NCBI GenBank assembly: GCA_023974075.1
Contig: JAMFTG010000044.1
Location: 124,001 to 188,000 of the forward strand
Source of the DNA: Chaenocephalus aceratus
Taxonomy: Eukaryota > Chordata > Actinopteri > Perciformes > Channichthyidae
Length of the DNA: 64,000 nt
Reading direction: 5' to 3'
Shown one piece after another: positions 3,891 to 48,464 of this stretch (position 1 is its first letter; the number at the start of each line of letters is the position of its first letter). A program made the translations under genes and the position numbers. Below the pieces are notes generated by a model, which saw only the letters and a list, made by a program, of their open reading frames with translations, was not told where the DNA came from and did no database searches.

Positions 3891-3945
3891 TACATTACAT
3901 TGCATTTAGCTGACGCTTTTATCCAAAGCGACTTACAATAAGTAA
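3891..3945. repeat. Fragment of a common fish hAT-type repeat core
   Basis: The fragment contains GACGCTTTTATCCAAAGCGA, the highly repeated core seen in many fish genomes. Other fragments in this window are at 6128-6385, 12237-12268 and, inverted, at 60935-61100. It separates two coding blocks of the G2E3-like pseudogene, so it lies in an intron or has replaced coding sequence. Confidence 0.7.
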
Positions 3946-4359
3946 TATACGGTTTGTTGGAAGGATCATACTTTTCAAATCAATTACTTTTATTACAAAC
4001 ATTCTTAAATCAGCTTGTAATAAATAATACAAATGGAATCTTCTGCTTTTTCCCCGTGGCCTTGTGTATGAGCCAGGCTCCCTCGGGCTCAGCCATCTTG
4101 GGGCAGACCTCAAAGGATATCTGTAATCATTGATCCGTATGGTCAGCATCCTCCGGGACGCGTGCAGACCTTCTTCCCAGCCCAGCCTGCACGAGAATAA
4201 GCTCCTCAGAGGGCTTGGGGGTTTCCTCGGAGGATGAAGAATGGAACACGGACAGTTTTAGGGCCCGTTCTTTGCTTCTCTTTTGGGAAAGGATCTGACG
4301 TTTTGTTTGACCGGAATAGTCCAGGGAAAGACCTGACAGACAGGGTGTCGATGACATTT

Positions 4360-7377: not shown

Positions 7378-7448
7378 GCGCTGCTGGTGTAGTGGTATCA
7401 TACAAGACTCCCATTCGTGTGACCATAGTTCGACTCCCGGGCGGTGCA
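7378..7448 (+). tRNA. tRNA-Gly(CCC)-like sequence, probably a pseudogene or SINE head
   Basis: A 71-nt cloverleaf-like sequence. The acceptor arms GCGCTGC and GCGGTGC pair over all seven positions (two G-T wobbles). The A box TGGTGTAGTGG and the B box GTTCGACTC are present. The anticodon loop CTCCCAT gives CCC. The T stem is broken at three of five pairs and the anticodon stem has one mismatch, so I favour a decayed tRNA or a tRNA-derived SINE head over a working gene. Confidence 0.5.
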
Positions 7449-7627: not shown

Positions 7628-8117
7628 TAGGGGTGTAACGGTTCACAAAAATGTCGGTTCGTTACGTACCTCGGTTTTTAGGTCACGGTTCGGTACAGCA
7701 GAAAAAAAATCACAAAACTAAATATATTTTTAGGATGTGCTAGGACCCAACGGCGCCCGAGCACGATGTGCTAGGACCCAACGGCGCCCGAGCACGATGT
7801 GCTAGGGCCCAACGGCGCCCGAGCACGATGTGCTAGGGCCCAACGGCGCCCGAGCACGATGTGCTAGGGCCCAACGGCGCCCGAGCACGATGTGCTAGGG
7901 CCCAACGGCGCCCGAGCACGATGTGCTAGGGCCCAACGGCGTCCGAGCACGATGTGCTAGGGCCCAACGGCGTCCGAGCACGAGCAGGGCCCCATCAGGA
8001 CATTCTGCTCTATCAATTCAACTAAAAGTTTTTTTAGCCAATGGCAAATACCCATAGAAACAACACTTTTCACGTTTACTTGATCGGGGAATCGTAAGAG
8101 GAGCCTCGCTGCCCAAA
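7628..8117. mobile_element. hAT-like repeat end carrying a minisatellite
   Basis: The left part contains GGGGTGTAACGGTTCAC followed by TACCTCGGTTTTTAGGTCAC, a common fish hAT-type terminus. No matching inverted terminus was found on the right, so the element is incomplete or its end has diverged. An exact 31-bp array makes up its middle. Confidence 0.5.
7734..7981. repeat. Minisatellite, exactly 8 x 31 bp
   Basis: Eight head-to-tail 31-bp units begin GATGTGCTAGG and end CCGAGCAC; 248 bp is exactly 8 x 31. Units 1-2 carry GGACCC where the others have GGGCCC, and units 7-8 carry GCGTCC where the others have GCGCCC, so variants sit at the two ends. Confidence 0.95.
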
Positions 8118-23685: not shown

Positions 23686-24400
23686 CTAATAGTCTTTAGA
23701 GAAAGTGTCAATGTCTGACTCGTCTATGTCTGACTCATCTGAGTCGTCAAGAGCTTCAGCCAAGCGCTTCTCGCCAGCAGCCACATTCTCTGCCTCAAGT
23801 CCGAGCTCGTCAGATATGGCCTCCTGGCGCACATTCTCCTCCTGCTCGGCTTCCTGATCCATAAGAACCAGGTCTTCATAGAGGTCGTCCCGTATCTCCT
23901 GCTCCTTCTGCCACGGGGGGCCCTCAATGGAGGAAAACATCAGGCGGCTGAGCGGTTCAGTACCCAGACAGGAACGCCAGTCGTTCTTCACCCTCTTCAT
24001 GCAGCTGAACCCCCGCTCACACACTGCAGTGTTGACTGCCAGAACAAGGTATATTTCAAACAGTATTGACAGCCCCTTATACTGTTTGCATCTCTCAGTG
24101 TCACACAGGATGCCAGAGAAGATCTGTGGCATTCGAAGTGTGCGGGCTGCTGCATAACTCGTGTAGAGGATGAACTCAGACTGCAGCATTTTAGTTGTAA
24201 CACTGTGCTCGTCCATCAGGGGCTGATAATGCTCACAGATATCAGCAACGTCTTGTTGCCATAGGCAGCCAGATCCTGTCTGTCAGAGGGCCATACCTAT
24301 GACTTTCTTCCGGAGAAAGAGAATCTGCCCTTCGTTGACATACTTGAGTCCCCTCATAGTCTCTGGCCTTCTGAATTCTCTCTTCTTCTGACTGGGATTC
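23686..24400 (-). pseudogene. hAT transposase C-terminal fragment (ZNF862-like)
   Basis: The open frame 23686-24216 and its in-phase upstream part, interrupted by TGA at 24283-24285, encode a C-terminal hAT dimerisation region: YKGLSILFEIYLVLAVNTA, then CERGFSCMKRVKNDWRS and LSRLM. An acidic Glu/Asp-rich tail follows. The style matches ZNF862-like domesticated hAT proteins, but the N-terminal zinc finger and catalytic core are absent here. The stop and truncation make it a pseudogene. Upstream of 24400 similarity ends at a G-rich tract. Confidence 0.75.
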
Positions 24401-27261: not shown

Positions 27262-28943
27262 TGGCGCGTTTCCACTGCAGGCCTCGCTCGGTTTGGTTTG
27301 GCCTTGTTAGGCCCGGCTCACTTTTATGCTGCGCTTCCATTACAGTTTAGGAACTGGGGTAGTTACTATAGTAACGCAGTGTAGGCGGGCGATCAGCTTT
27401 TTGGCGGGCGGAGCGAGGCTGCATACAACTGCCGTGACGTCATCTTCAATGCGACACAACACACACAACAACAATGGAGGATGTGTAAGCCATCGTGTCC
27501 TTGCTTCTTGGTATGTGGTTTTTTTATCACAGCAAGAAGGAAAACTTTGTTTCGGAAAAGGCTGCTTATAGCAAGACGTGATACAGAAGAAGCTGAGGGG
27601 AGACTTACGGCAATCGTACAACGCGGCAGAGACGACTCCAGGATGACGACGCTACTCGGTAAGTTCACGCTCACTATACGACCAAAGTGTTTCAAGTATT
27701 TAATTAATTGTAGCTACGACTTCTACATGTATGCTTTTGTGTATTTCAGAAGTTAGGTTGCCGCCGCAGACCATGTGTTTGGATGCTTGACCGAGTGGTG
27801 GGGTGTGATTGTTCCATCTTTCTCACGCACTCAGCGGAGAACTTCAGGATGTCTGAGGAAACCTACATCTACCTGTGCGACAAACTGCGGCCAGCGATGA
27901 GAGACAGGACACAACATTCCGCGAGTACCTCTAAAGAAGATGGTGGCCATCGCGCTGTGGAAGCTTGCGACCGGCTCAGAGTACAGAAGCATTGGACATC
28001 TCTTCGGAGTGAGCAACACCACCGTGTGCGATACCTCTGTGCCGCTGCAGAGGCGTTGTTAGTACCGGAACTAATTCGTTCACCAGACCGGGAGCAGTTT
28101 TCAGAAATGGCTGCCGACACTGAGAACCGGTGGGGGCTCCCTCAGTGTGTAGGTGCTATCGATGGATCACACAGACCCATCTTGGCACCACAGGAATACC
28201 ACTGCGACTATTTCAACCGGAAAGGCTGGCACTCCATCGTCCTTCAGGGAGCTGCAGATGGAAAGGGACATTTCTGGAATGCCTGGGAGCTTGCATGACG
28301 CTCGGGTTTTGAGGCTGTGGGAGTTGGCCAGTCGTGGCAACTACTTTCCACCTTGCACCAGGGACATTGGTGGGGTGAATGCTGGCTATTACATCCTGGG
28401 AGACGATGCCTATCCCTTGCAAAGCTGGCTCATAAAAACGTTCCCTGACGGCTGACGGCAGAACATGTGATCTACAACAAGAGAATGTGCAGCACGGGTA
28501 GTGGTAGAAAACGCTTCGACTGAAGGGAAGGTGGCGTTGCCTCATGAAAAGAAATGACTGTGATGTGAAACTTGTGAAATCCATGGTGCTGACATGCTGT
28601 GCTCTGCGAGAGTCGTGGAGAGGCCTATGACGATGGGTGGGATGCAGCAGCAGCAGAGCCTGGGGTAGCAGTGGCTCAAGGCGCAGAGGAGGAGGGCACT
28701 GACATACGAGAGGGTTTGATGCGCTACCTGAATAGCTAAATATTCATTGTATACAGGAAACTTGAATGTTCTGGTTCATAACATCATCAGTGATATACAT
28801 TTCTTGTGTTTGTAATTATAGACACGACATTGAAAGATTGTGGGCCATTAAGGCTAGTGACGTTTTGTTTTTATTATTACTACATTGTATTGAACATAAA
28901 TACATATTTTCTCTTTCACATGTGTTTGTCAAATGATTTAAAC
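27262..28943 (+). mobile_element. Harbinger element, copy 1
   Basis: The left side starts GGCGCGTTTCCACTGCAGGC, a Harbinger-type terminus. A short first exon, an intron and a HARBI1-like second exon follow. The copy is collinear with 29680-31300 until about 28943. A right-hand terminal inverted repeat was not recognised, so the 3' boundary is the point where the two copies stop matching. Confidence 0.7.
27471..28455 (+). pseudogene. HARBI1-like (DDE_4) transposase, copy 1, broken
   Basis: Exon 1 begins at ATG 27474 but reads TAA at the fifth codon, where copy 2 has GAA. An extra T in the T-run near 27520 then shifts frame. The donor GTAAGT near 27660 and the acceptor TTTCAG near 27750 are kept. 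Exon 2 has RMSEETYIYLC, then an out-of-frame middle, then the catalytic block CVGAIDGSHRPI...YFNRKGWHS...LQGAADGKGHF intact (frame 27783-28298). A further shift precedes LHDARVLRLWEL and YILGDDAYPLQSWLIKTFP. Multiple lesions make it inactive. In Harbinger families such a transposase works with a Myb-like partner; none is seen here. Confidence 0.85.
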
Positions 28944-29679
28944 CAAAAAATGTTATCAGAATTGAGTATTTAGTAAATATTTGATTTTCAAGCACTAGTA
29001 AGTACTTCCCCAAAATAAGAACATTTGAGCAAATATAAAAGTAAATACGTATGATCTCTTATCCCCCTTCTCTTTCTGTTTTTTCTAAATACCCCCTTCC
29101 AGTTTATTTGTAAAAGAAAATCTTTGTCTTTAAGTAATGTGTCAGTTACCAAATAATGTTTTAGAGGACCTCAAGCAAGCAAACTCAATTCCTTGCTTTA
29201 GATCTCTTCTTAAAATTAACTTTTTTCTGATGGGATTTTTCCTAACTGATGGTGTTTCTTATTGCTTTAGAAACTCATGTATGTTTATATCTCTAGATCT
29301 CAATTGGGCTATTTTTACAATTGTGATATTGTAGGCTTTTGTTTTTTAAAGATCCACACATATTATTAGCAATGGTATTAGTTGTAGCCTATTTTTATTT
29401 AGGAAAAATATGGGCCTATAACTTCTGCCTCATGTGAACCTGCGTTTTTGTTCTGTTGATTTAAAGCCCTTTAATTAACATTTCAGTTTATGATTGGATT
29501 CCAAAACTGTAATGTTGTGTGTGAGTGGCAACCCAGTGACTTTGTTTACATGCTCACGAAAATCAGTTTGTTAATCAGATGATGGCAGGAAAAACGTGTA
29601 TTCAGCTAAAACATGTACATCGCTGCAGTTATTGAAACGGTTTGCAGAGTGGCTTCGACAGGCCGGGGAGTGTTACGAT
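28944..29679. other. Spacer between Harbinger copies, no gene recognised
   Basis: AT-rich sequence unique within the window. It holds only short frames and no terminal repeats. Confidence 0.5.
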
Positions 29680-31300
29680 TCTCGCTCGGTTTGGCCTTGT
29701 TAGGCCCGGCTCACTTTAATGCTGCGCTTCCATTACAGTTTAGGAACTGGGGTAGTTACTATAGTAACGCAGTGTAGGCGAGGCGAGCAGCTTTTTGGCG
29801 GGCGGAGCGAGGCTGCATATACAACTGCCGTGACGTCATCTTCAATGCAACAAAAACACACAACAACAATGGAGGATGTGGAAGCCATCGTGTCCTTGCT
29901 TCTTGGTGTGTGGTTTTTTATCACAGCAAGAAGGAAAACTTTGTTTCGGAAAAGGCTGCTTATAGCAAGACGTGATACAGAAGAAGCTGAGGGGAGACTT
30001 GTGGCAATCGTACAACGCGGCAGAGACGACTCCAGGACGACTCAACGACAACGCTACTCGGTAAGCTAACATTCGCTAACTAGCAATGTGTTTCACGCTC
30101 ACTATACGACCAAAGTGTTTCAAGTATTTAATTAATTGTAGCTACCACTTTTACGTTTAAAATATGTATGCTTTTGTTTGTGTATTTCAGAAGTTAGGTT
30201 GCCACCGCAGACCATGTGTTTGGATGCTCGACCGAGCAACCGAGTGGTGGGGTGTGATTGTTCCATCTTTCACACGCACTCAGTGGAGAACTTCAGGATG
30301 TCTGAGGGAACCTACGTCTACCTGTGCAACAAACTGCGGCCAGCGATGGAGAGACAGGACAACAAACACAGGACACAACATTCCACGAGTGTATACCTCT
30401 AAAGACGATGGTGGCCATCGCGCTGTGGAAGCGTGCGACCGGCTCAGAGTACAGAAGCATTGGACATCTTTTCGGAGTGAGCAACACCACCGTGTGCCGG
30501 TGTGTGCGAGACCTCTGTGCCGCTGCAGAGGCGTTGTTGGTACCGGAACTAATTCGTTCACCAGACCGGGAGCAGTTTGCAGAAATGGCTGCCGACACTG
30601 AGAACCGGTGGGGGCTCCCACAGTGTGTAGGTGCTATCGATGGATCACAGACCCATCTTGGCACCACAGGAATACCACTGCGACTATTTCAACCGGAAAG
30701 GCTGGCCCTCCATCGTCCTTCAGGGAGCTGGAGATGGAAAGGGACATTTCTGGAATGTGTTTGCAGGAATGCCTGGGAGCATGCATGCGCTCGGGTTTTG
30801 AGGCTGTGGGAGTTACCCAGTCGTGGCAACTACTTTCCACCTTGCACCAGGGACATAGGTGGGGTGAATGCTGGCTATTACATCCTGGGAGACGATGCCT
30901 ATCCCTTGCAAAATTGGCTCATAAAAACGTTCCCTAAAACGTGAAACTTGTGAAATCCATCTGACATGCTGCGCTCTGCGAGAGTCGTGGAGAGGCCTAT
31001 GACGATGGGTGGGATGAGCCTGGGGTAGCAGTGGCTCAAAGTGCAGAGGAGGAGGGCACTGACATACGAGAGGATTTGATGCGCCACCTGAATATTCATT
31101 GTATTCAGGAAACTTGAATGTTTTGGTTCATAACATCAGTGATATACATTTCCTGTGTTTGTAATTATAGACACGACATTGAAAGATTGTGGGCCATTAA
31201 GGCTAGTGACGTTTTGTTTTGTTTTTATCATTACTACATTGTATTGAACGTAAATACATATTTTCTCTTTCACATGTGTGTTTGTCAAATTATTTAAGCA
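29680..31300 (+). mobile_element. Harbinger element, copy 2 (5'-truncated)
   Basis: The match to copy 1 begins at CTCGCTCGGTTTGGCC, about 20 bp inside the terminus of copy 1, and runs to about 31300. The terminal repeat itself is missing on the left. Confidence 0.75.
29873..30944 (+). pseudogene. HARBI1-like (DDE_4) transposase, copy 2, broken
   Basis: Exon 1 starts at the ATG of 'ATGGAGGATGTGGAAGCC' (about 29871) and is open for about 63 codons to a donor GTAAGC at 30061. Exon 2 opens after TTTCAG near 30190 with PPQTMCLDARP and RMSEGTYVYLCNKLRPAM. A frame change leads into the frame 30324-30944, which holds ATGSEYRSIGHLFGVSNTT, a helix-turn-helix region that copy 1 has lost. CVGAIDGS then shifts, so the central catalytic block is out of frame. 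YILGDDAYPLQNWLIKTFP is again open. The lesions differ from those of copy 1. Confidence 0.85.
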
Positions 31301-31485
31301 CGGCTCCCAGAGCTGTTCTTCATGAAATCCCAGAAGGATGAAGTGCTCTGACAAACAATGCCATCTTTGCGCAAAATGATTACACAGGAATGAAAAGTCA
31401 ATAAATAAACGTGTTGTTAAAACTTTTTTTTTTTCGGGCCACCACCCGCCCAAGTATATTTCAGATCGGTGGGAAACACTGTCAC

Positions 31486-32170
31486 ATCAACATATTCACA
31501 TGGGAGTAAACCCGTACAGCTGTGTAGAGTGTGGGACAACTTTCACTCAATCAAGTGATCTCAAAGCACGTGTTCACTCAGGACAAAACCCATAGTGGTT
31601 TTAAGAGTCTTGGAACAAATAAAAGCACTTCACTTAATGGTGTAAGCATGCTACTTTAACATACAGTAGTTTGGCATTAGAGTGCATCAAAATACACAGT
31701 TCCAGCATATTGATCTGTCTGGTGCTAAAAGTGTTACCATCCATGCAAAAACAATAAATGCAAAATATTGTTGATTTAGAGGTGGAACGGCACATCAGCT
31801 TTTACGGCACAGGGGGTAACCTGGACCCATGATAAAGGGGTTACTTTGTTATGTCGTTCTCTGGTGCCATCACTTTGGGCTTCAATGTTTGGTTTCAAGA
31901 AGATGAAACAGCTGCTCCACCAGCGGAGAACACACCCACCGCAAAAAAAAAAAATGTAACTTTAAAAAAAGAAAAAAATTCCCCTTTCCCTCAAACTTTG
32001 CGTGCCCCAAAGTGAGAAAAAACGTACTGGTGTGAAGAGTGTGGGACAACTTTCACAAGTGAAGTAAAGTGTTAAAGCAGAAAGTTTAATACAGCGTATT
32101 TCAGGTATATTCATTTTATTATGTCACCTGATATATAAGAAGTGTGTTAAATTTGAATGGACAAAGTAAA
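31486..32170 (+). pseudogene. Zinc-finger module, fragmentary copy C
   Basis: C2H2 finger fragments (YSCVECGTTFTQSSDLKARV near 31523 and YWCEECGTTFTSE near 32025) surround a short piece also found at 43780-43890 and 47030-47140. Compared with copies A (42028-44500) and B (45480-48290) the order is shortened and a foreign segment is spliced in at 31949-32005. Finger spacing and the linker HTGEKP-like words are partly kept, but no continuous frame exists. Confidence 0.65.
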
Positions 32171-32270
32171 TGTTTTTATGAAACCCTGAGGGTGAATTTT
32201 AAAATGAATTAAATATGACAATTCTCCCATAACTAATGACGAGGGATCAACTAATATTTTTATACTCACC

Positions 32271-33021: not shown

Positions 33022-33025
33022 ATCC
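33022..33025. repeat. 4-bp target duplication of the provirus, left
   Basis: ATCC precedes the LTR end here and recurs at 36029-36032 directly after the other LTR end. Length fits retroviral integration. Confidence 0.65.
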
Positions 33026-33514
33026 TGTTATGGAAATCTAGGACCCAACACAGCGCTTGAGAGTACAAGTCAAATGATCAAAACAAATAAATGGTGAATC
33101 AAGCAAAGCTGTCTTTTGGTTATTTATTTGAAGCTTCAAACAAACCATACAATAATATAATAATGTCACAAGTCGCACAGAGTATAGGATAGTCTGCGTG
33201 AGAGTGCGCAGATCAATGGAAAGACAAAGGTTATATAGAAAAGGAGTGGGAAAGAGAACAATCTGGGTTCACACAGTCAGATTGTTGATGAGACACCCAG
33301 TGGCCTTGAGTAGATAGCATAACGGTTCTCAGAGCAGGGAAGTTCGTGATGTGTCTGACTGAGTCTCTTAGTAGCCAAAGCAGCTCTTTGGCCTTGAAGG
33401 AGAGGAAGCAGAGATATATAATAATAGTAAGAATATATCAGGAAATGAGAAGCATTTGGTTTAAGCATATGAAAGAAATAAGAAAAGGATAATAAAATAA
33501 AAATTTCCACTACA
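33026..33514 (-). repeat. Complete 3' LTR
   Basis: On the minus strand the LTR starts TGTAGTGGAAAT right after the polypurine tract and ends CCATAACA. A TATATAA box lies at 33231-33237 and an AATAAA signal at 33123-33128 (both on the minus strand), giving a U3-R-U5 order. The length of 489 bp is ordinary for a vertebrate retrovirus. Confidence 0.85.
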
Positions 33515-33527
33515 TTCTCCCCTTTTG
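33515..33527 (-). other. Polypurine tract
   Basis: Minus-strand AAAAGGGGAGAA immediately precedes the TG of the LTR. This fixes the LTR start and the orientation of the provirus. Confidence 0.8.
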
Positions 33528-33705
33528 ATCATACTTGATCAATAGAAAAAACAAATGATAGGATAGACTGATATAACACATCAATGAATACACTCCATCG
33601 CTGGTTTAAGTAAACACATCACAAATATATCATAGAAAACTGGCTGTTTTTGTGGAGGACAGACTCCAATATAATGTAAGCATAAGAGAGGAGATACACA
33701 CATGA

Positions 33706-35705
33706 TTATATTGATGAATCGGAATCAGACTCTTCTGATTCTAGCTGATCTATCTCACTGTGGCGCAAAGGATTGTCTTGTAATGGAATAGTAGTATACT
33801 GAACGAAAGCTGAGGACACCATACTGGAAACGCATTTCTTCAGTATTGGGATAATCACACAGGTACAACTGATTAATAGGCCAAACATGATCGCCAGGGG
33901 TGTAACTATACTAGCCAGCCATGCTTTCCACCCGCCTGATGTAAGCCAGGCCCACCAGTCCCAGCCCCCTGCGTTGGATATGTCATCAGCTTTCATGTCA
34001 GCTAACAGGTTGTTAAGATGCAGCACGGTGTCAGTGATGTTCTTGGTGGCGTCGGGAATGTAAGTGCAACAGGAGTCACCGATCACATGACACAGGCCAC
34101 CCTTTGAGGCGAACAAAAGGTCAAGAGCGAATTGGTGCTGCATGAGCATGTTCCTAGAGGCTATTATGAATGGGGTCAATGCCTGGAAGCCTTGCGTCGT
34201 CTCGTAAGTGAGGTTCTCTAGCCGGACGTGTAAGGTATCTATTTTATGGGCATTGTTTACTGTACCCCACCATGGGAACAGGCCACCCATGAATTTAGCT
34301 CCAGTGGACGTCATATCTCTTTTTACCTTGTGGTGGTCGGGGTGTTGGAACTCTGGGTAATGATGTGTCGTGTGCATTAAGGACGTGAGTACAGTGACTG
34401 CTGGATTCAAATCCACTAGAGTGCATGTACCTATCCAGAGGGGAGCCAGAACTTGATAGAGCTTGTTGCCGCACAACCAAACGTAATCTTCTGGCGCGCT
34501 AAACCCAGCATCACTGGGCCACGCCAGTTGCAGGGAGATATGTTTAACATCAGGGAATGCTACGTTAGAAAGGATTCTTTCAGGGGCACCAGATATGTGA
34601 CAATACGAGATTTTGTAAGCACCGTCACCGCATGTGTTCCGTAGGATGCGAGTACAACCAGTAGTAGTGCCTAGGAAAAAATAAGGTGGTGTCAAAGACG
34701 TTTTGTGGTAAACTCTCTGGATGCAGAGGCTGTGTTTCATCCCTCTCCTTGACTGGGGTGCACATGGCTGACGGGTTGGTACTTTGCGTATGTGGTATCA
34801 AGCGTGGATGCACGCAAAGAGGAGTCAGACCGATTGCTGCATGGTGGGGGAAGCTGCCTAGCATAACGCCACTCGGTTACGCTGTCTTCACCCTTGATGG
34901 GCTTTGTCAGAGCCATAAACGCGCAGAGGTGTTCAACCTGGGTCAGAGAGCGCGGACGAACTGGCACGGACATCGATGAGTCCTGGGGGAAAAGGGTGCA
35001 TGCATAACATGACCCATTTTGTCCTGCGGCCTGCAAGAATGATCTCAGAGTGTGCCACCAGACGTTACCGGTGATCCCATTACTGGTCTGACCCACATCA
35101 ATGTTGCTTTGGTCGTTATCGCCTATGTATAGATTAAATGTAGATGTACCTATGGATGTCAATAGTGGCGTCAAAGGTTGCTTACGCTTTTCCGGGGTCT
35201 GAGTTTTGGGCGCGATGTCTATGTAAAATGTGCCACACGGGTCGGCGCCGGATACATACATACAGACAACAAAATAAAATAAATGTGGTTCGCCCTGCTT
35301 TCCCCATGTACCTCTTAGATACCTCGATTTTGGCTGACATGCTGTATGCTGAAATGGATACATAAAATATAGGACTAGTCCTAACACAACTATCATGGCA
35401 AGTATGCAGAGGAACCATTCTATGATTGTCCAGGCTCTCCAGTAGCATTCACATTGCTCACGGTTGCGTTGTCGTCTCTCCAGGCGAGCCCTCATCACGA
35501 GGGGGAAATGTTCCATGGAGTGTGTGAGTGTATTCTCTCGGTCGATTTCGTGACACGGACCGTCAGACTTCGCACACTGATAACACAAACGAGGAACCAG
35601 AGAGCATATGGAACCGCTCAGCTGGCACTCGCTCGTGACACCTTGTGTGTAGTGTGTTTTGGTGCATGTAGTGCAAGTGTGGTGCTGGTGGTGACTAGGA
35701 CACAT
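33706..35705 (-). pseudogene. Retroviral env gene, one frame break
   Basis: Two minus-strand frames make up an env-like gene. The upstream one (35705-34737) has a hydrophobic leader segment at about residues 94-118 and cysteine-rich surface-type sequence. The downstream one (34740-33706) holds the remainder: a KVKR furin-type site near residue 138, a CX6CC motif at residues 217-225, a membrane span near 277-297 and an acidic tail. The two overlap by four bases in different phases, so the gene is broken by a frame change. CX6CC is typical of the transmembrane subunit of gamma-type retroviral envelopes. Two N-glycosylation sequons are visible downstream. The first ATG lies within the inverted LTR arm, so the natural start is probably internal. 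Confidence 0.8.
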
Positions 35706-36028
35706 CACGAACTTCCCTGCTCTGAGAACCGTTATGCTATCTACTCAAGGCCACTGGGTGTCTCATCAACAATCTGACTGTGTGAACCCAGATTGTTCTC
35801 TTTCCCACTCCTTTTCTATATAACCTTTGTCTTTCCATTGATCTGCGCACTCTCACGCAGACTATCCTATACTCTGTGCGACTTGTGACATTATTATATT
35901 ATTGTATGGTTTGTTTGAAGCTTCAAATAAATAACCAAAAGACAGCTTTGCTTGATTCACCATTTATTTGTTTTGATCATTTGACTTGTACTCTCAAGCG
36001 CTGTGTTGGGTCCTAGATTTCCATAACA
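35699..36028 (+). repeat. Inverted partial LTR (330 bp)
   Basis: Exact reverse complement, as far as I can read, of 33026-33355. It carries TATATAA at 35817-35823 and AATAAA at 35926-35931 in plus orientation and ends CCATAACA. The first 159 bp of the LTR are missing; the break joins env-side sequence at 35698. Confidence 0.9.
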
Positions 36029-36267
36029 ATCCGTGCTCTTATCCAGCTGCAGAGCGGAATATCCACGAGCTCTCACTCGCTCCAGAAGCTGAGCAGATAC
36101 TCAGTTTCACTCTCAGCAGCGGCAGCTCGATTCTGATTGGCCTGAAGGGTGTGAGATTTAAAAACAATCAAATAAAATATTAATAAATAAAAAGATTAAA
36201 AGATTGGCATCAAAGGACACAGATTGATAGATTTGCAGTTATTAATAACATCTAAACAAATTAATTC

Positions 36268-36365
36268 AAAAAATGTAACTTTAAAAAAAGAAAAAAATTC
36301 CCCTTTCCCTCAAACTTTGCGTGCGGCCCCTGGCGGCCCCCCACTTTGAAAAACACTGTACTAGT
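36268..36365. repeat. hAT-like end shared with 31949-32005
   Basis: A 57-bp stretch (ATGTAACTTTAAAAAAAG... to CAAACTTTGCGTGC) is the same as that at 31949-32005. It continues here into CCACTTTGAAAAACACTG, which resembles a hAT terminus. Confidence 0.7.
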
Positions 36366-36970: not shown

Positions 36971-37090
36971 GACATACCCTACTAACCCTTAGAGTTGGGT
37001 GCTTTGGAACAATGTGTTCAGGTGTACTGTGCTGCAGATATTTGTTACATTTGTATCGAATTGATAGTTCTGAAAGCCAATGTAAACCTT

Positions 37091-37257
37091 TCCTTGGAGA
37101 AGTGTCTGGTATAGTTTGTAAAGTCACAGCACATGTTCAGCTTTACTGAGTGAGGTCAATAGTGTTGTGCTGCCATCAAGTTCAGGCGAACTTGATAGTT
37201 CTAGAAATTTGGAACTCTTAGTCATCGAGGTAGTCGTTTTTGTGAAAAGCAGAAATC
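37091..37257. repeat. 167-bp direct repeat, left copy
   Basis: From TTCCTTGGAGAAGTGTCTGG to AAAAGCAGAAATC, repeated at 48297-48464 with two or so differences. The two copies bound an 11.0-kb block. Confidence 0.9.
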
Positions 37258-39299: not shown

Positions 39300-40910
39300 T
39301 AAGTCAAATTTCGTGACTGACAGGCTTATATTTGCATCCTTACGAAACAGTTACAAAGGAAATCAGGGCAGCTAAATCCAACTTCTTTGTTAATCTCATT
39401 CATGGATCTAAGGGAAATCATAAACAAATCTGGGACTGTCTGCAGAACCTAACAGGGAAAGGACATAAAATAACAAAGCAGCTGGAGATCAGTAACAATG
39501 GAACCTTACGTAAGGGGCCAGCAGAAATAGCGGCTATTTTTAATAACCATTTTATTGATTCTGTGAGGCTGACTATAAACAGTCCCCAAATTGGTCAAAT
39601 ACATTCATTACCTATTGATTATACACAGCCAGTCTTCTCCCTGACAGAGACTTCTGAATCCAAAGTTAATTCTATAATTTCTTCTTTAAACAATTCCAAA
39701 TCAAAAGACACTTTTGGACTGGATTCTCTGTTTCTAAAGAAACATGCTACCACCCTCACAGGGACAATTACCAACATAATGAACACCTCTTTTAGGGAGG
39801 GAACATTCCCAAAAGACTGGAAGTTAGCCATTGTTGTGCCAGTCCACAAATCCGGGGACACGACTGATGCAAACAGCGATAGGCCCATTAGTGTTTTACC
39901 TATCATGTCTAAGATCTCTGAGGAATGTGTAGCTGAGCAATTGACTGGACATCTTAACAGTAGTCCTTTCACACTACACACCATGCAATTCGGCTTCCGA
40001 GCCAATCAGTCCACCGAGACCGCAAAGTGTTTCCTTGTGGAAAATATTAAATCAAAAATGGACAAAGGAGGCATTGTTGGAGCAATCTTCTTAGATCTTA
40101 AGAAAGCTTTTGATACAGTCAATCATCAAGTGCTCATTCACAACATGTCCTATTTTAATTTCTCACCCAGTGCTATAGACTGGATGAGCTCCTATCTGTC
40201 AGACAGAGTTCAGTGTGTGAGGGTGAGTGGCGAGACATCACCACCCCTGAGGAATGAACTGGGTGTACCCCAGGGATCTATCCTGGGCCCAATTCTATTC
40301 AGCCTGAATATAAATGACTTGCCCTCAGTGTGCACTGGATGTGAGGCGCACGCTGATGACACTGTCATTTATGTCCATGCAAAAACCAAGGCCCAAGCTG
40401 CGGCCAAACTAAATGATGCAATGGTTAATGCACATCAATGGCTTACTGACTCACAGCTATATCTGAATGTTAAGAAGACAGTCTGTATGTTTTTTAGCAA
40501 GACCCACACGGTGAACCCCAGGTCTATGTGTCTGGGGAGGTCATTCAAACATTTCAAATATCTAGGCATTATCCTTGACACTACACTATCCTTCAAAACA
40601 CAAGTGAGAAAGGTAACGCAAATAACTAAATACAATCTAGCAAACTTTAGATATATAAGGAACTGCTTGACAACACCTGTTGCAAAACTCTATATGACTG
40701 CCATGATCCTTCCGCACCTAACATACTGTATGACCAGCTGGACCCAGGCGAATAGCACAACATTAAGGCCTATCCTGTCACTTTACAAGCAAGCTCTCAA
40801 AGTTTTTGACAGAAAACCAAAGCTATACCACCATTGCAAAATCCTGGACAAACATGTCATGTCATGTCTATCACTATCTTTTGTTCATCCTCTTGCAGGT
40901 GTGAGACATC
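39300..40910 (+). pseudogene. L2/Rex-like LINE reverse transcriptase, 5'-truncated
   Basis: A long open frame (from 39332) encodes a reverse transcriptase of the Jockey superfamily (CR1/L2/Rex1 group). Palm motifs are visible: FLDLKKAFDTVNH near residue 253, GVPQGSILGP near 310 and HADDTVIY near 340, where most relatives have Y/F before ADD. KTVCMFFSK and FKYLGIILD follow. The endonuclease domain is absent. The last family-like residues are about YHHCKILDKHV near 40850. The frame then runs on by chance into MITE copy 3. No in-frame stop breaks the RT region, so the copy is fairly young, but it cannot be autonomous. Confidence 0.85.
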
Positions 40911-40947
40911 AACAGGCGGGTGCCATTTTTGTTTTTCCATTGCCTTT

Positions 40948-41564
40948 AGCCGCGTTCACACTGCGGTACTTTCCCCACAAAGGTTCATGTGAACTTAGTT
41001 CATGCGAACTCTTTAGTTCGCATGAACTAAGTACAGATCGCGTTCACACCGGAATAAGCCCCTGGGGGTGGATTAGGCAAATGAAGCCGCTGACGTCACT
41101 TCTTCTTCTTCTGCTTCCCGGAGTTGGGGAAGGCTTCAGTAGAAGCTGCTGGGAGTCCCAGCAGCTTCTACTGAAGCCTTCCGAGTAAATCGCCAGAACG
41201 CCGACACCTCCTCGTCTCCACCGCTCCCATGTTTTATTTTGTGTTGCCATAAGTTAGTCTCTCTGCGTTTCTGCGCTGGGCTAATGCTAATAATGCTAAT
41301 GCGAGGATAATAAAATGGCGGCTTCACAAAACTTTTTGGGAGTTTTACGGGGCGTGGTTTGCAATCCACTCAGCCAATCAGGAATATAGCTCTTTTCTCA
41401 CAAAAGAGCCGCTCGAAAGTCCCTGCTCTCTAGCAGGGACTTTGGAGGGGGTAAAAAGGTTCGCATGAACTACTTTTAGTACCGGCTCTTTTTGGTGTGA
41501 ACGCGATCATGAACTAAGTTCGCATGAACCTTTGTGGGAAAAGTACCGCAGTGTGAACGCGGCT
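40948..41564. mobile_element. Harbinger-like MITE, copy 3
   Basis: Ends AGCCGCGTTCACACTGCGGT and its reverse complement, with TTT on both flanks (40945-40947 and 41565-41567). It carries the same 51-bp palindrome as copy 2 (41130-41180). It lies just beyond the LINE fragment. Confidence 0.85.
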
Positions 41565-42027: not shown

Positions 42028-42254
42028 GTGGAGTGTGTTTTGAGTGTGGGACAACTTTCACTACATCAAGTTCTCTCAAATCATCAACATATTCTCACGG
42101 GAGAAAAAACGTACTGGTGTGAAGAGTGTGGGACAACTTTCACAAAAAGAAAAAAAGACAGAAAGTTTATTTCAGGTATATTCATTTTATTATGTCACCT
42201 GATATATAAGAAGTGTGTTACATTTGAATCGACAAAGTACATTTTTTCCTCTTA

Positions 42255-43548
42255 ATTATAGAGGTTTTTTATATATTCCTGAAACAATGTCCCCTTTTTA
42301 AGCAAAAGTAGATTAGCGCAATAGTCTTTTCTTCCACGTTTCATGTTTCTGACCATTGCATGTATGATATATGTGTAATGTGTGTATATGTAATAGCGCT
42401 TTGAGTCATTGAAAAAGCGCTATAATAAATGTAAGGAATTATTATTATGTATAAGCAAAAGGGCGTTTTTTTGGCTATTTTTGAGTAGGTAATGTAAAGA
42501 TTACCCGTTAAGTATTTTTCAGAAAGTCTTGTTGCAGTTTCCAGATATCAATTGAGGCCCCTGAGTCTCTTTGTTAATCATCAATGGTCTTTGCAATTAA
42601 CAGGGGGACTCCAAGAGAGATCTTCCTCAGATATACTGCAGTTAAAGTCTCGTTAGTTAAGGATTCATTTCCTGCAAGGCTCATGAAGAGGCCTGGAGAC
42701 GAGAGTCGGCCTGGATTATCAATACATGTATTCATTCCAAGTAAGCTGACTTTGGGGTGGAATAAAGTTCAGAGGAAGGCCTTAGGGTATGGGAACAGTT
42801 AACCTTTGTTAGTTAAATAATTCACATGGCTTTCAGAGGGGAAAAACCTGTGACATTTGTGAGGGGCTGCATGATGAAATGAGTGTGCGTTACACATGCT
42901 AAGGGAAATGAGTGTTCTACTATTTCACTGCTTGAGAGCAGAGGTAATGTTTTCCTTGTTATTATTGATATTAAAGTAACTGATTTGTATTGGCCAACTA
43001 TAAACAGCTATGTCATAAACATATCTTTAAGATACCTAAAGTATGTGAAACTGTGTGTATTGAACTGATGGGGGAGGGGGCCGGAGAGAGGAAGTCTCTG
43101 CAGAATGTGTGTGTGTCCAAACTGCAAAAAAGCGAACACCAGATGTGTTTGTTTTGCCCTCAAACTGAAGAGGCTTTCTCCTGGCTGGCTCGCGCCGATT
43201 CGCTGCGACAGGCTGTCGTTTGTATATCGCCCAATAGATGACCCCTCTTCATGAGCATCCACACAACTCCTCCCGTTGTTCTTACATATCTCCTGTTGTG
43301 TGTTCTGTTCAGTCTCTTTCCTCCTGCCGTCAAGATGATGGGGTCTCCCGGCATTAGAGCAGGGGTGGGCCTGATGATGGGGTCTCCCGGCATTAGAGCA
43401 GGGGTGGGCCTACCCCTTGTAAAGTGTATTGTATCCTTTTATCATTAAAACAGATGATTGTTTAACCCTGTATCTGGTGCTTTGAATTCCTTTCTTTTAT
43501 AATCTGACCAGCTCATCAAAGGCCACGCTGAGCCGAGGTGGGTTTCAG
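42255..43548 (+). repeat. Non-coding 1.3-kb unit, LTR-like in style
   Basis: Shared with 45665-46830. It has ATTAAA near 43443, a T-rich stretch and an end GGGTTTCAGACCACA; the beginning might be a TG. This would suit a solo LTR between the finger fragments, but no target duplication was seen. Call it LTR-like only. Confidence 0.35.
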
Positions 43549-43789
43549 ACCACACCTTGCTCCAACACAAGTTATCTCAAATCACGTGTTCACTCAGGAG
43601 AAAAACCATAGTGGTGTGAAGAGTGTGGGACAACTTTCACTCAATCAAGTGATCTCAAAGCACGTGTTCACTCAGGAGAAAAACCCAAAGTGGTTTTAAG
43701 AGTGTTGGAACAAATAAAAGCACTTCACTTAATGGTGTATGCTACTTTAACATACAGTAGTCTGGCATTATTGATAAAGGGGTTACTTT

Positions 43790-45110
43790 GTTATGTCGTT
43801 CTCTGGTGCCTTCACTTTGGGCTTCAATGTTTGGTTTCAAGAAGATGAAACAGCTGCTCCACCGGCGGAGAACACACCCACCGCAAGCGTAAGAAGACTG
43901 GCGCCTTCATTCTCAGCCGGCCGAGGCTTGCGTCACTGGCTACACGGTTGAAGATCACACCAATGCAGCAGGCTGCCTTCACCCGCGGCCTGATCGAGTT
44001 GACGCCGATGCTCACCAATGTGCGCCAGTTGGAGGAGCGTCTGACAGTGGTGGTCGGAGATGCTGAGCGGCTCAAACTCCTATATGAAGGGAACTGACGA
44101 GCCATGCGGAATGATCATCGCCCGGCTGACATTGCACCGATCAGGTTGTTAACATGGCATTTGAGTTCATGCAGCCGTGTCTTGTGTATCTAGGTGCAGA
44201 CAGTGCAGCACACACTCCAGTTACCTTCCTACGGCCGGGAGCACTGCACAAGGCGCGGTGGATGGCCAAGCTGCTCTACACGCTCAAGCTGGCCTTGCAG
44301 CACATTGCGTTGCTTCCTCAGGGAACTATCACTACGTGGCACAGGTGCTGAAGATTCGGGCGTTTGCCAACGTCATTTCGCACAGGGACGGGTGGCGCAG
44401 TGGTCTGTGCATCGGATCAAGTTTCTGACCATTGCATGTATGATATATGTGTAAAGCGCTATAATAAATGTAAGGAATTATTATTATTATTATTATCATC
44501 TACGCAACGTGGTGGCTGACCTGCGACACGGCCGTAGATGCCGCATGGAATTACCTCACACTCTACCACCACCTGTACGCGTACAAGTCTGTTGACGAGG
44601 GCATCGCAGCATCAGCGATCAAGGCACTGGAGCGGCACCTATGGTACCCGACAGGCGAGATGCCGCCCCTGGCACTCTTCAGCACCAAGGTGCCAGTTGG
44701 CGAGCACTTGCAGATGCCATCTTGGAGCACAAGCCGGCTGACATCCCCAAGCGAGCCCCACAGCTCCGCTTTGGCACTGGCAAGCCAAAGTTTCCAACCC
44801 TCTCACCAACCAGCAGCTTGGCTGACCCCGCCAACCCAGACTGCTGGTTCGGCATGCACATCAATCCAGCGTTTCTCTCACTGGATGCAGAGGATCGGGC
44901 TGCCAGTGAAGCATGCCAGATGGGTGCGGTGAATGTACGAGTCATTAATGTTGTGAATGACTGCCGAGCATGGCGTCAAACTCAGACTTTGTGGCAGGAG
45001 CGAGGAGCACCTGCAGAATGTGCTGCAGGCAGTTGAGCATGACCGCTCTAAACAGCCAAATCTGCGCCACTGCAAGCGCCATGACATCTTTGAGGGTGTC
45101 CTCTCTTATG
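43790..45110 (+). pseudogene. Uncharacterised repeat-associated protein, copy A
   Basis: Fragments of one protein appear in successive phases: ITPMQQAAFTRGLIELTP (about 43960), YLGADSAAHTPVTFLRPGA and HKARWMAKLLYTLKLAL (about 44190-44310), then after a SINE-like insertion WWLTCDTAVDAAWNYLTLY, ALERHLWYPTGEM, RFGTGKPKFPTL, and lastly VNVRVINVVNDC. I recall a protein family with HLWYL and VVNDxAERGV motifs, found in many copies in fish, cnidarians and insects, without a known function. Frame changes and the insertion break it. Copy B keeps a part that is lost here. Confidence 0.6.
44372..44500 (+). mobile_element. SINE-like insertion in copy A
   Basis: The insert runs from GGGTGGCGCAGTGGTCTGTG to a tail AAGCGCTATAATAAATGTAA followed by (ATT)n. 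It splits the coding sequence between VISH and IYATWW. The same insertion is at the same place in copy B (about 47945-48077), and a third tail is at 42340-42450. The head resembles tRNA-derived SINEs and the tail an L2-type 3' end. Confidence 0.55.
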
Positions 45111-45430
45111 ATGTTGGACTTTATCTGAGATATTTTGTTAAGAAAAAGAGATGGTTCACTATTTTGAACAGGCGCATTAAGCAGTTCAAATATAGAACCA
45201 CAGATGCTTCCTCCAAGCCATGTGAGGTCAGTCCTAAAACACGAAGACTTTCTGGTCATGCCGTACAGAACTGGCATTTTTTAAGACTGTTGCCTCTAAT
45301 AATTGGAGACAGAGTGCAAGAGCCACAGGACGATGTTTGGCAATTAACTCTACAACTGAAAGATATAGTTGTCATGGTTTCGGGTTTGTTTTCCTTAGTT
45401 TCATTGTGTTCTAGGACTTTTACTTTGTAG
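44957..45430 (+). CDS. Chimeric open frame of two repeat-family pieces
   Basis: A 157-codon frame first reads the end of the uncharacterised family (LQNVLQAVEHDRSKQPNLR) and then, without a break, HDIFEGVLSYDVGLYLRYF, NRRIKQFKYRTTDASSKP and HAVQNWHFLRLLPLIIGD. The second half belongs, in my recollection, to a different fish repeat-associated protein family with an HDxFEGV motif. The junction falls near 45083. Whether it is expressed is unknown; the frame opens inside a pseudogene. Confidence 0.45.
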   Translation: MTAEHGVKLRLCGRSEEHLQNVLQAVEHDRSKQPNLRHCKRHDIFEGVLSYDVGLYLRYFVKKKRWFTILNRRIKQFKYRTTDASSKPCEVSPKTRRLSGHAVQNWHFLRLLPLIIGDRVQEPQDDVWQLTLQLKDIVVMVSGLFSLVSLCSRTFTL

Positions 45431-45479
45431 TCTTGTGTGTGTGTTAATGTCCTTGTTCCTCGTGTGTTGACTTCCCTTT

Positions 45480-48296
45480 CCTGTCATCAACATATTCACA
45501 CGGGAGAAAAAACGTACTGGTGTGAAGAGTGTGGGACAACTTTCACAAGTGAAGTAAAGTGTTACAGCAGAAAGTTTAATACAGCGTATTTCAGGTATAT
45601 TCATTTTATTATGTCACCTGATATATAAGAAGTGTGTTACATTTGAATGGACAAAGTAAATGTTTTCCTCTTAATTATAGAGAGGTTTTTTAAATATTCC
45701 TGAAACAATGTCCCCTTTTTAAGCAAAAGTAGATTAGCGCAATAGTCTTTTCTTCCACTTTTATGTATAAGCAAAAGGGCGTTTTTTTGGCTATTTGTGA
45801 GTAGGTAATGTAAAGATTACCCGTTAAGTCTTGTTGCAGTTTCCAGATATCAAGAGAGGCCCCTGAGTCTCTTTGTTAATCATCAATGGTATTTGCAATT
45901 AACAGGGGGACTCCAAGAGAGATCTTCCTCAGATATACTGTAGTTAAAGTCTCGTTAGTTAAGGATTCATTTCCTGCAAGGCTCATGAAGAGGCCTGGAG
46001 ACGAGGGTCGGCCTGGATTATCAATACATGTATTCATTCCAAGTAAGCTGACTTTGGGGTGGAATAAAGTTCAGAGGAAGGCCTTAGGGTATGGGAACAG
46101 TTAACCTTTGTTAGTTAAATAATTCACATGGCTTTCAGAGGGGAAAAACCTGTGACATTTGTGAGGGGCTGCATGATGAAATGAGTGTGCGTTACACATA
46201 CTAAGGGAAATGAGTGTGCTACTATTTCACTGCTTGAGAGCAGAGGTAATGTTTTCCTTGTTATTAATGATATTAAAGTAACTGATTTGTATTGGCCAAC
46301 TATAAACAGCTATGTCGTAAACATATCTTTAAGATACCTAAAGTATGTGAAACTGTGTGTGTTGAACTGATGGGGGAGGGGGCCGGAGAGAGGAAGTCTC
46401 TGCAGAATGTGTGTGTGTGTGTGTCCAAACTGCAAGAATGTGAGACAGCGAACACCAGATGTGTTTGTTTTGCCCTCAAACTGAAGAGGCTTTCTCCTGG
46501 CTGGCTCGCGCTGATTCGCTGCGACAGGCTGTCGTTTGTATATCGCCCAATAGATGACCCCTCTGGGAGGAGCATCCAAACAACTCCTCCCGTTGTTCTT
46601 ACATATCTCCTGTTAATTGTTCCGTTCAGTCTCTTTCGTCCTGCCGTCAAGATGATGGGGTCTCCCGGCATTAGGACCGGAGCAGGGGTGGGCCTACCCC
46701 TGTAAAGTGTATTGTATCCTTTTATCATTAAAACAGATTATTGTTTAACCCTGTATCTGGTGCTTTGAATTCCTTTCTTTTATAATCTGACCAGCTCATC
46801 AAAGGCCACGCGGAGCCGAGGTGGGTTTCAGACCACATCTTCACTCAGGAGAAAAACCATAGTGGTGTGAAGAGTGTGGGACAACTTTCACTCAATCAAG
46901 TAATCTCAAAGCACGTGTTCACTCAGGAGAAAAACCCAAAGTGGTTTTAAGAGTGTTGGAACAAATAAAAGCACTTCACTTAATGGTGTATGCTACTTTA
47001 ACATACAGTAGTCTGGCATTATTGATAAAGGGGTTACTTTGTTATGTCGTTCTCTGGTACCTTCACTTTGGGCTTCAATGTTTTGTTTCAAGAAGATGAA
47101 ACAGCTGCTCCACCGGCGGAGAACACACCCACCGCAAGCGCAAGAAGACTGGCGCCTTCATTCTCAGCCGGCCGAGTCTTGTGTCACTGGCTACACGGTT
47201 GAAGATCACACCAATGCAGCAGGCTGCCTTCACCCGCGGCCTGATCGAGTTGACGCCGATGCTCACCAATGTGCGCCAGTTGGAGGAGCGTCATAGTGGT
47301 GGTCGGAGATGCTGAGTGGCTCAAACTCCTATATGAAGGGAACTGACGAGCCATGCGGAATGATCATCGCCCGGCTGACACGGCACCGATCAGGTTGTTA
47401 ACATGGCATTTGACACCACCGCGTGAAACACTGGCCATCTCACAGCATCCAACTCTCACTGGGTCGACCACTGCTCTGGTCCGGGTGCCGGCACCACATC
47501 GGCGAGGTGCTCCCCAGCCACATTCTCACTGACCTCAAGGTGAAGACGTCACGCTCGCTAGAGGTTACATTGTTTACACGGCTCCGGGACAACTGGGACC
47601 TGGTGCCACATAAGGACAGCGGCCAATTGTCCCGATTCATTCCTGATGAGGCCGAACCACCGGTCCTGGGCAAGTTGCGTGCACTGCAGGAGTGCTCGAC
47701 TACAAGCGAGGTGACTACCGTGAGTTCGTGCAGCCGTGTCTTGTGTATCTGGGTGCAGACAGTGCAGCACACACTCCAGTTATCTTCCAACGGCCGGGAG
47801 CACTGCACAAGGCGCGGTGGATGGCCAAGCTGCTCTACACGCTCAAGCTGGCCTTGCAGCACATTGCGTTGCGTCCTCAGGGAACTATCACTACGTGGCA
47901 CAGGTGCTGAAGATTCGGGCGTTTGCCAACGTCATTTCGCACAGGGACGGGTGGCGCAGTGGTCTGTGCATCCGATCAAGTTTCTGACCATTGCATATAT
48001 GTGTAATGTGTGTATATGTAAAGCGCTTTGAGTCATTGAAAAAGCGCTATAATAAATGTAAGGAATTATTATTATCTACGCAACGTGGTGACTGACCTGC
48101 GACACGGCCGTAGATGCCGCATGGAATTACCTCACACTCTACCACCACCTGTACAAGTCTGTTGACGAGGGCATCGCAGCATCAGCGATCAAGGCACTGG
48201 AGCGGCACCTATGGTACCTGACAGGCGAGATACTGCCCCTGGCACTCTTCAGCACCAAGGTGCCAGTTGGCGAGCACTTGCAGATTCCAAACTTTT
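45480..48296 (+). repeat. Duplicated module, copy B
   Basis: Collinear with copy A: finger fragment (45510-45550), 1.2-kb non-coding unit, finger fragment (46840-46940), then the uncharacterised protein. It directly follows the chimeric frame, giving a tandem duplication of about 3.4 kb. Confidence 0.85.
47040..48290 (+). pseudogene. Uncharacterised repeat-associated protein, copy B
   Basis: Starts like copy A, but between 47405 and 47735 it keeps a segment that copy A lacks: LLWSGCRHHIGEVLPSHIL and LFTRLRDNWDLVPHKDSGQ. HKARWMAKLLYTLKLAL and the SINE-like insertion follow, then HLWYLTGE. It stops at 48290, where the 167-bp direct repeat begins, so the C-terminal part present in copy A is missing. 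Frame changes are present. Confidence 0.6.
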
Positions 48297-48464
48297 CCTT
48301 GGAGAAGTGTCTGGTATAGTTTGTAAAGTCACAGCACATGTTCAGCTTTACTGAGTGAGGTCAATAGTGTTGTGCTGCCATCAAGTTCAGGCGAACTTGA
48401 TAGTTTTAGGAATTTGGAACTCTTAGTCATCGAGGTAGTCGTTTTTGTGAAAAGCAGAAATCAG
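48297..48464. repeat. 167-bp direct repeat, right copy
   Basis: Partner of 37091-37257. The sequence to its right (48465 on) is unique and would be the natural continuation of 37257 if the 11-kb block was added later. Confidence 0.9.

Follow-up and report, generated by a model that had tools for sequence, protein, structure and literature searches.

A defective endogenous retrovirus of Chaenocephalus aceratus with inverted LTRs and two U5-type outer ends

The window analysed here, a 64,000-nucleotide stretch of Chaenocephalus aceratus DNA, contains a 3.0-kb defective endogenous retrovirus whose LTRs are inverted, not direct, and whose two outer ends are both of the U5 type. Host DNA follows each U5 end, with no PBS in the usual place. 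The element is thus an aberrant product of a retrovirus with a gamma-type env and not a normal provirus. The reading that we favour, with moderate confidence, is that it stems from an aberrant linear cDNA that carried U5 on each side, arose by a minus-strand template switch and was integrated once.

Anatomy and outer ends

Read in minus-strand sense, the left LTR starts with TGTAGTGG and terminates with CCATAACA, giving the TG...CA ends; its termini form imperfect short inverted repeats (TGTAGTGGAAATTT and TGTTATGGAAATCT). It contains TATA-like sites at LTR positions 95 and 278 and an AATAAA at position 387, and a polypurine tract adjoins its U3 end, as in endogenous retroviruses with a gamma-type env (Table 1). 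The right LTR lies in the opposite orientation and lacks the first 159 bp. The original prediction had equated two 330-bp arms with the LTRs, which they are not: the complete left LTR measures 489 bp, and only its positions 160-489 recur on the right.

Table 1. Parts of the element in window coordinates
Feature	Positions	Strand	Remark
Target-site duplication ATCC, left copy	33022..33025	.	chance match 0.0056 in local flanks
Complete LTR, 489 bp; outermost base is the U5 end (33026), innermost the U3 end (33514)	33026..33514	-	
Polypurine tract CAAAAGGGGAGAA, abutting the U3 end	33515..33527	-	
env 3' frame, end of SU plus TM, C-x6-CC	33706..34797	-	TLV_coat and syncytin-2 matches
env 5' frame from the start codon; internal deletion and frame change relative to relatives	34740..35516	-	
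Stretch upstream of env	35517..35698	-	relative not found
Inner joint: sequence upstream of env against LTR position 160, opposite orientation	35698..35699	.	
Truncated LTR, positions 160-489, outermost base is the U5 end (36028)	35699..36028	+	330/330 identical to left arm
Target-site duplication ATCC, right copy	36029..36032	.	

The arms themselves (33026-33355 and 35699-36028) are inverted, 330 nt long and 100% complementary, and a base-by-base script comparison found 0/330 differences, as had been claimed. Because the next longest ungapped inverted pair listed for the whole window spans 153 nt at 97% identity, an inverted repeat of this length is not a product of chance; gapped inverted pairs in the window are longer but less alike, reaching 676 nt at 84%. 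The absence of differences in 330 positions places the divergence of the arms at 0.9% at most (95% upper bound). This is weak evidence of youth, since gene conversion within the palindrome could also keep the arms alike.

The outer ends agree with what the original prediction had said of them. On each side the outermost 16 bases have 0/16 mismatches to the U5 terminus and 5/16 to the U3 terminus, and ATCC flanks the element on both sides within the window, which makes the target duplication 4 bp long. The probability that 4-mers taken at random from the 2-kb flanks, one from each side, agree is 0.0056. According to a table in PMC12789967, gammaretroviruses (MLV) and simian foamy viruses alike have 4 nt, and the length for epsilonretroviruses is listed as unknown; the 4-bp duplication therefore does not fix the genus.

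These ends also bear on whether the arrangement is an artefact of assembly, either from misjoined direct LTRs or from a palindromic read. Repeats favour misassembly. A palindromic read, however, would have mirrored the left flank as well, and the right flank matches it in only one direct stretch of 57 bp; under any such artefact the ATCC match would be a coincidence. We consider this explanation very doubtful.

Rearrangement after integration, by inversion and deletion within a normal provirus or within two neighbouring proviruses of opposite orientation, is quite unlikely. The imperfect inverted repeats at the LTR termini could in principle recombine, and duplicated segments are present in the neighbourhood. 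The right outer end, however, is U5 through its last 16 bases. The break would have to coincide with the LTR terminus, and a large deletion would have to follow. Had two independent insertions supplied the ends, the agreement of their flanking 4-mers would be the chance event estimated above. A single integrase insertion fits both the outer ends and the 4-bp duplication, and this part of the original proposal, that an already rearranged DNA with two U5 ends was integrated, is in keeping with the sequence.

A proposed strand switch as the source of the two U5 ends

Along the plus strand of the window the parts follow one another as U5, R, U3, polypurine tract and env, all in reverse complement, followed by a plus-sense LTR fragment that extends through U5. 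It is the order expected of a minus-strand cDNA that continues into a copy of its own LTR in reverse. We infer the steps of formation from what is observed directly, namely the anatomy, the ends, the flanking ATCC and the identity of the arms. Minus-strand synthesis would have proceeded past the first strand transfer and copied the LTR, the polypurine tract and env. Just upstream of env, the growing 3' end would then have switched to minus-strand LTR DNA at LTR position 160, the acceptor being either the 5' part of the same strand, folded back, or a sister cDNA. Copying to the 5' end of the acceptor would have created the second U5 terminus, because the acceptor minus strand has U5 at its 5' end. 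A second strand must then have been made, for which the model offers no priming at the new U5 end. Finally, integrase would have processed both U5 ends and inserted the DNA with a 4-bp duplication. The lack of gag and pol matches in the reading frames scanned, and of a PBS, is expected if synthesis left the viral genome just upstream of env.

Where within the LTR the switch fell depends on which promoter is assumed. If the TATA-like site at position 278 was used, the switch point would fall in U3, 118 bp upstream of that site, and an acceptor that had already undergone the first strand transfer would be required; if the site at position 95 was used, the switch point could lie in R. Whether strong-stop DNA is a possible acceptor thus depends on the true transcription start.

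At the joint, no similarity was found on the retained side, where 172 of 473 LTR positions score no lower than the actual junction, and sequence similarity on that side lends the switch no support. An 81-nt fold across the joint is likewise no better than shuffled sequences (z -0.12). A search for relatives of the stretch upstream of env (35517..35698) that might span the joint returned one candidate, and none at E <= 1.

A joint of this kind would also suit a different origin, in which one intasome took the U5 ends of two cDNAs and their free tails, one broken within the LTR and the other upstream of env, were later united by host end joining. Such a capture yields identical outer ends and the duplication, and end joining permits a joint that lacks homology on the retained side. 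It requires, however, that a single complex hold two cDNAs and that two breaks occur, and nothing in the sequence favours it over a single strand switch; we regard it as unlikely.

Of the two sources that had been proposed for a two-U5 DNA, a strand-switched reverse transcript fits, and an autointegration product does not. Shoemaker reportedly found an inverted segment in circular MLV DNA in 1980, and autointegration produces such inverted segments. Its products are circles, however, and here an insertion in linear form would be needed. Autointegration further requires an LTR terminus (TG or CA) joined to an internal site, and no terminus is present at 35698/35699; since that joint brings LTR position 160 up against sequence upstream of env, we rejected this origin as extremely improbable. 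Related unintegrated DNA may reportedly be described by Olsen and Swanstrom (1985).

Elements that carry inverted repeats by design were rejected as well. DIRS elements encode a tyrosine recombinase and Penelope elements a GIY-YIG endonuclease; neither protein was found in the 11 reading frames that overlap the internal stretch, and the element has a polypurine tract, an env and a 4-bp duplication instead.

The env gene and its relatives

The 3' frame of env matches Pfam TLV_coat (E 5.1e-13), and its best match of 48 in the PDB is syncytin-2 (E 7e-11). It carries CHVIGDSCC, a C-x6-CC motif, and env is by these sequence features of gamma type. The 5' frame begins at a start codon at 35516-35514 on the minus strand; together with the stretch upstream it gave only Pfam matches below the cut-offs. 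In all 11 frames of at least 60 aa that overlap the internal stretch, Pfam detected no gag or pol, the matches other than env being sub-threshold. The env reading frames of the element are broken.

A protein search with the env 3' frame returned seven proteins. The strongest match by E-value is 78% identical over 92% of the query, and the highest identity, 96% over 70%, is to a protein of Chaenocephalus aceratus. Of the remaining five, one each belongs to Gymnodraco acuticeps, Trematomus bernacchii and Siganus canaliculatus, and two belong to Sander lucioperca. By its lineage record Chaenocephalus aceratus is a notothenioid, as are Gymnodraco acuticeps and Trematomus bernacchii, so that the env relatives indicate a probable notothenioid host. 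Viral contigs yielded no env relative, and a 19-nt pattern at the boundary of polypurine tract and LTR had no perfect match there.

Between two env motifs that they share, the G. acuticeps protein and the relative P0008 hold 118 residues. Owing to a deletion (35185-35448), about 4 residues separate those motifs in the window copy, and the same is found in the C. aceratus protein. This common deletion would predate the insertion, unless the window copy and that of C. aceratus are orthologous.

Precedents, fate and surroundings

This kind of structure is not new, and a mirror-ended provirus is a rare accident for which human DNA holds one likely precedent or more. The human HERV-K element of Hughes and Coffin reportedly has inverted LTRs at its ends, as we infer in part from a later citation of it. 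That citation, in the available text of PMC3625200, concerns a possible mechanism of LTR inversion, and the title of the cited work (Hughes and Coffin, 2002) says that the element 'resembles a DNA transposon'. That element, an endogenous retrovirus relative like ours, is likened there to a DNA transposon; theirs is a human HERV-K and ours a fish element of gamma type, and the likeness is drawn from title and citation. The same paper describes HERV-K124, in which, as here, truncated LTR copies are inverted relative to the 5' LTR. HERV-K124, however, carries three LTRs, of which two are reversed fragments of 78 bp, whereas the window element has two, of which the inverted one measures 330 bp and has an intact U5. 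Its authors attribute HERV-K124, speculatively, to LTR inversion and template switching, report a reversed 967-bp LTR without a 5' LTR in K126, and call LTR inversion a rare event.

More distant parallels share single traits with the element. Locust Gypsy-25 (PMC8786324) has an inverted LTR pair, which its authors present as the classic structure of the subfamily; these are insect Ty3/Gypsy retroelements, unlike our gamma-type fish element, and the likeness is one of LTR orientation. Template-switch complexes of grass retrotransposons (PMC1950507) resemble it as aberrant reverse transcripts inserted once with a clean duplication, but they have three LTRs and two cores, and the text of that paper never uses the word 'inverted'. 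HIV-1 proviruses in PMC9278108 include a small class of inverted defective forms, one with inversion alone and one with inversion plus deletion (each 1.3% of a total of 78, which we back-calculated from 51.3% for n=40); the two-U5 structure does not appear in the available text of that paper. The words 'inverted' and 'inversion' are absent from PMC3228705. PMC11379458 treats mismatched duplications as a mark of a recombined provirus, and its available text has nothing on inverted LTRs.

Since both LTRs point outwards and neither U5 end is followed by a PBS, the copy was probably dead on arrival. By its anatomy it should be incapable of retrotransposition, and a family of inverted copies that propagates itself is less likely for that reason. 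A broader idea, that a fish lineage often makes two-U5 cDNA with inverted LTRs and has left several germline copies, inserted like DNA transposons with long inverted ends, strikes us as very unlikely; if true, a single genome would show how frequently a strand switch gives an integration-competent palindrome. If the strand-switch origin that we favour holds, the element would be a natural record of a retroviral integrase that accepted a U5 end on each side of a single germline insertion, and of a reverse transcriptase that can copy a minus strand back on itself and leave a usable substrate.

As the LTRs point outwards, neither supplies a promoter directed into env; by the same anatomy both LTRs would face host flanks. 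Read-through transcription would be expected to give an RNA with complementary arms of 330 nt. The structure further suggests that LTR finders based on direct repeats will miss such copies.

Around the element, a homologue of the insertion point that could serve as an empty site was not found in the duplicated segments of the window. Outside the element, its two sides share an identical 57-bp stretch in direct orientation (31949-32005 and 36268-36324), the left copy of which sits between two segments that are copied elsewhere in the window. A segment of about 3.3 kb is present as a tandem pair at 42081-48462 (89-92% in gapped BLAST pieces, 96-99% in ungapped ones), and further pieces of this segment occur at 31482-32176 and 37084-37257. 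Another tandem pair, about 88% alike, spans 27295-31297, its second segment giving a weak DDE-type helix-turn-helix match below the cut-off. Traces of other mobile elements comprise an open frame of 623 aa at 39317-41188 that contains a LINE-like reverse transcriptase (PF00078, E 1.2e-28), a UnaL2 LINE 3' element at 3896-3949 on the minus strand, and a hAT dimerisation region at 23689-24282 whose score of 21.2 bits is slightly below the cut-off of 21.4. Finally, an array of 31-bp tandem repeats at 7703-8012 begins about 255 bp after a predicted tRNA-Gly (7378-7448).
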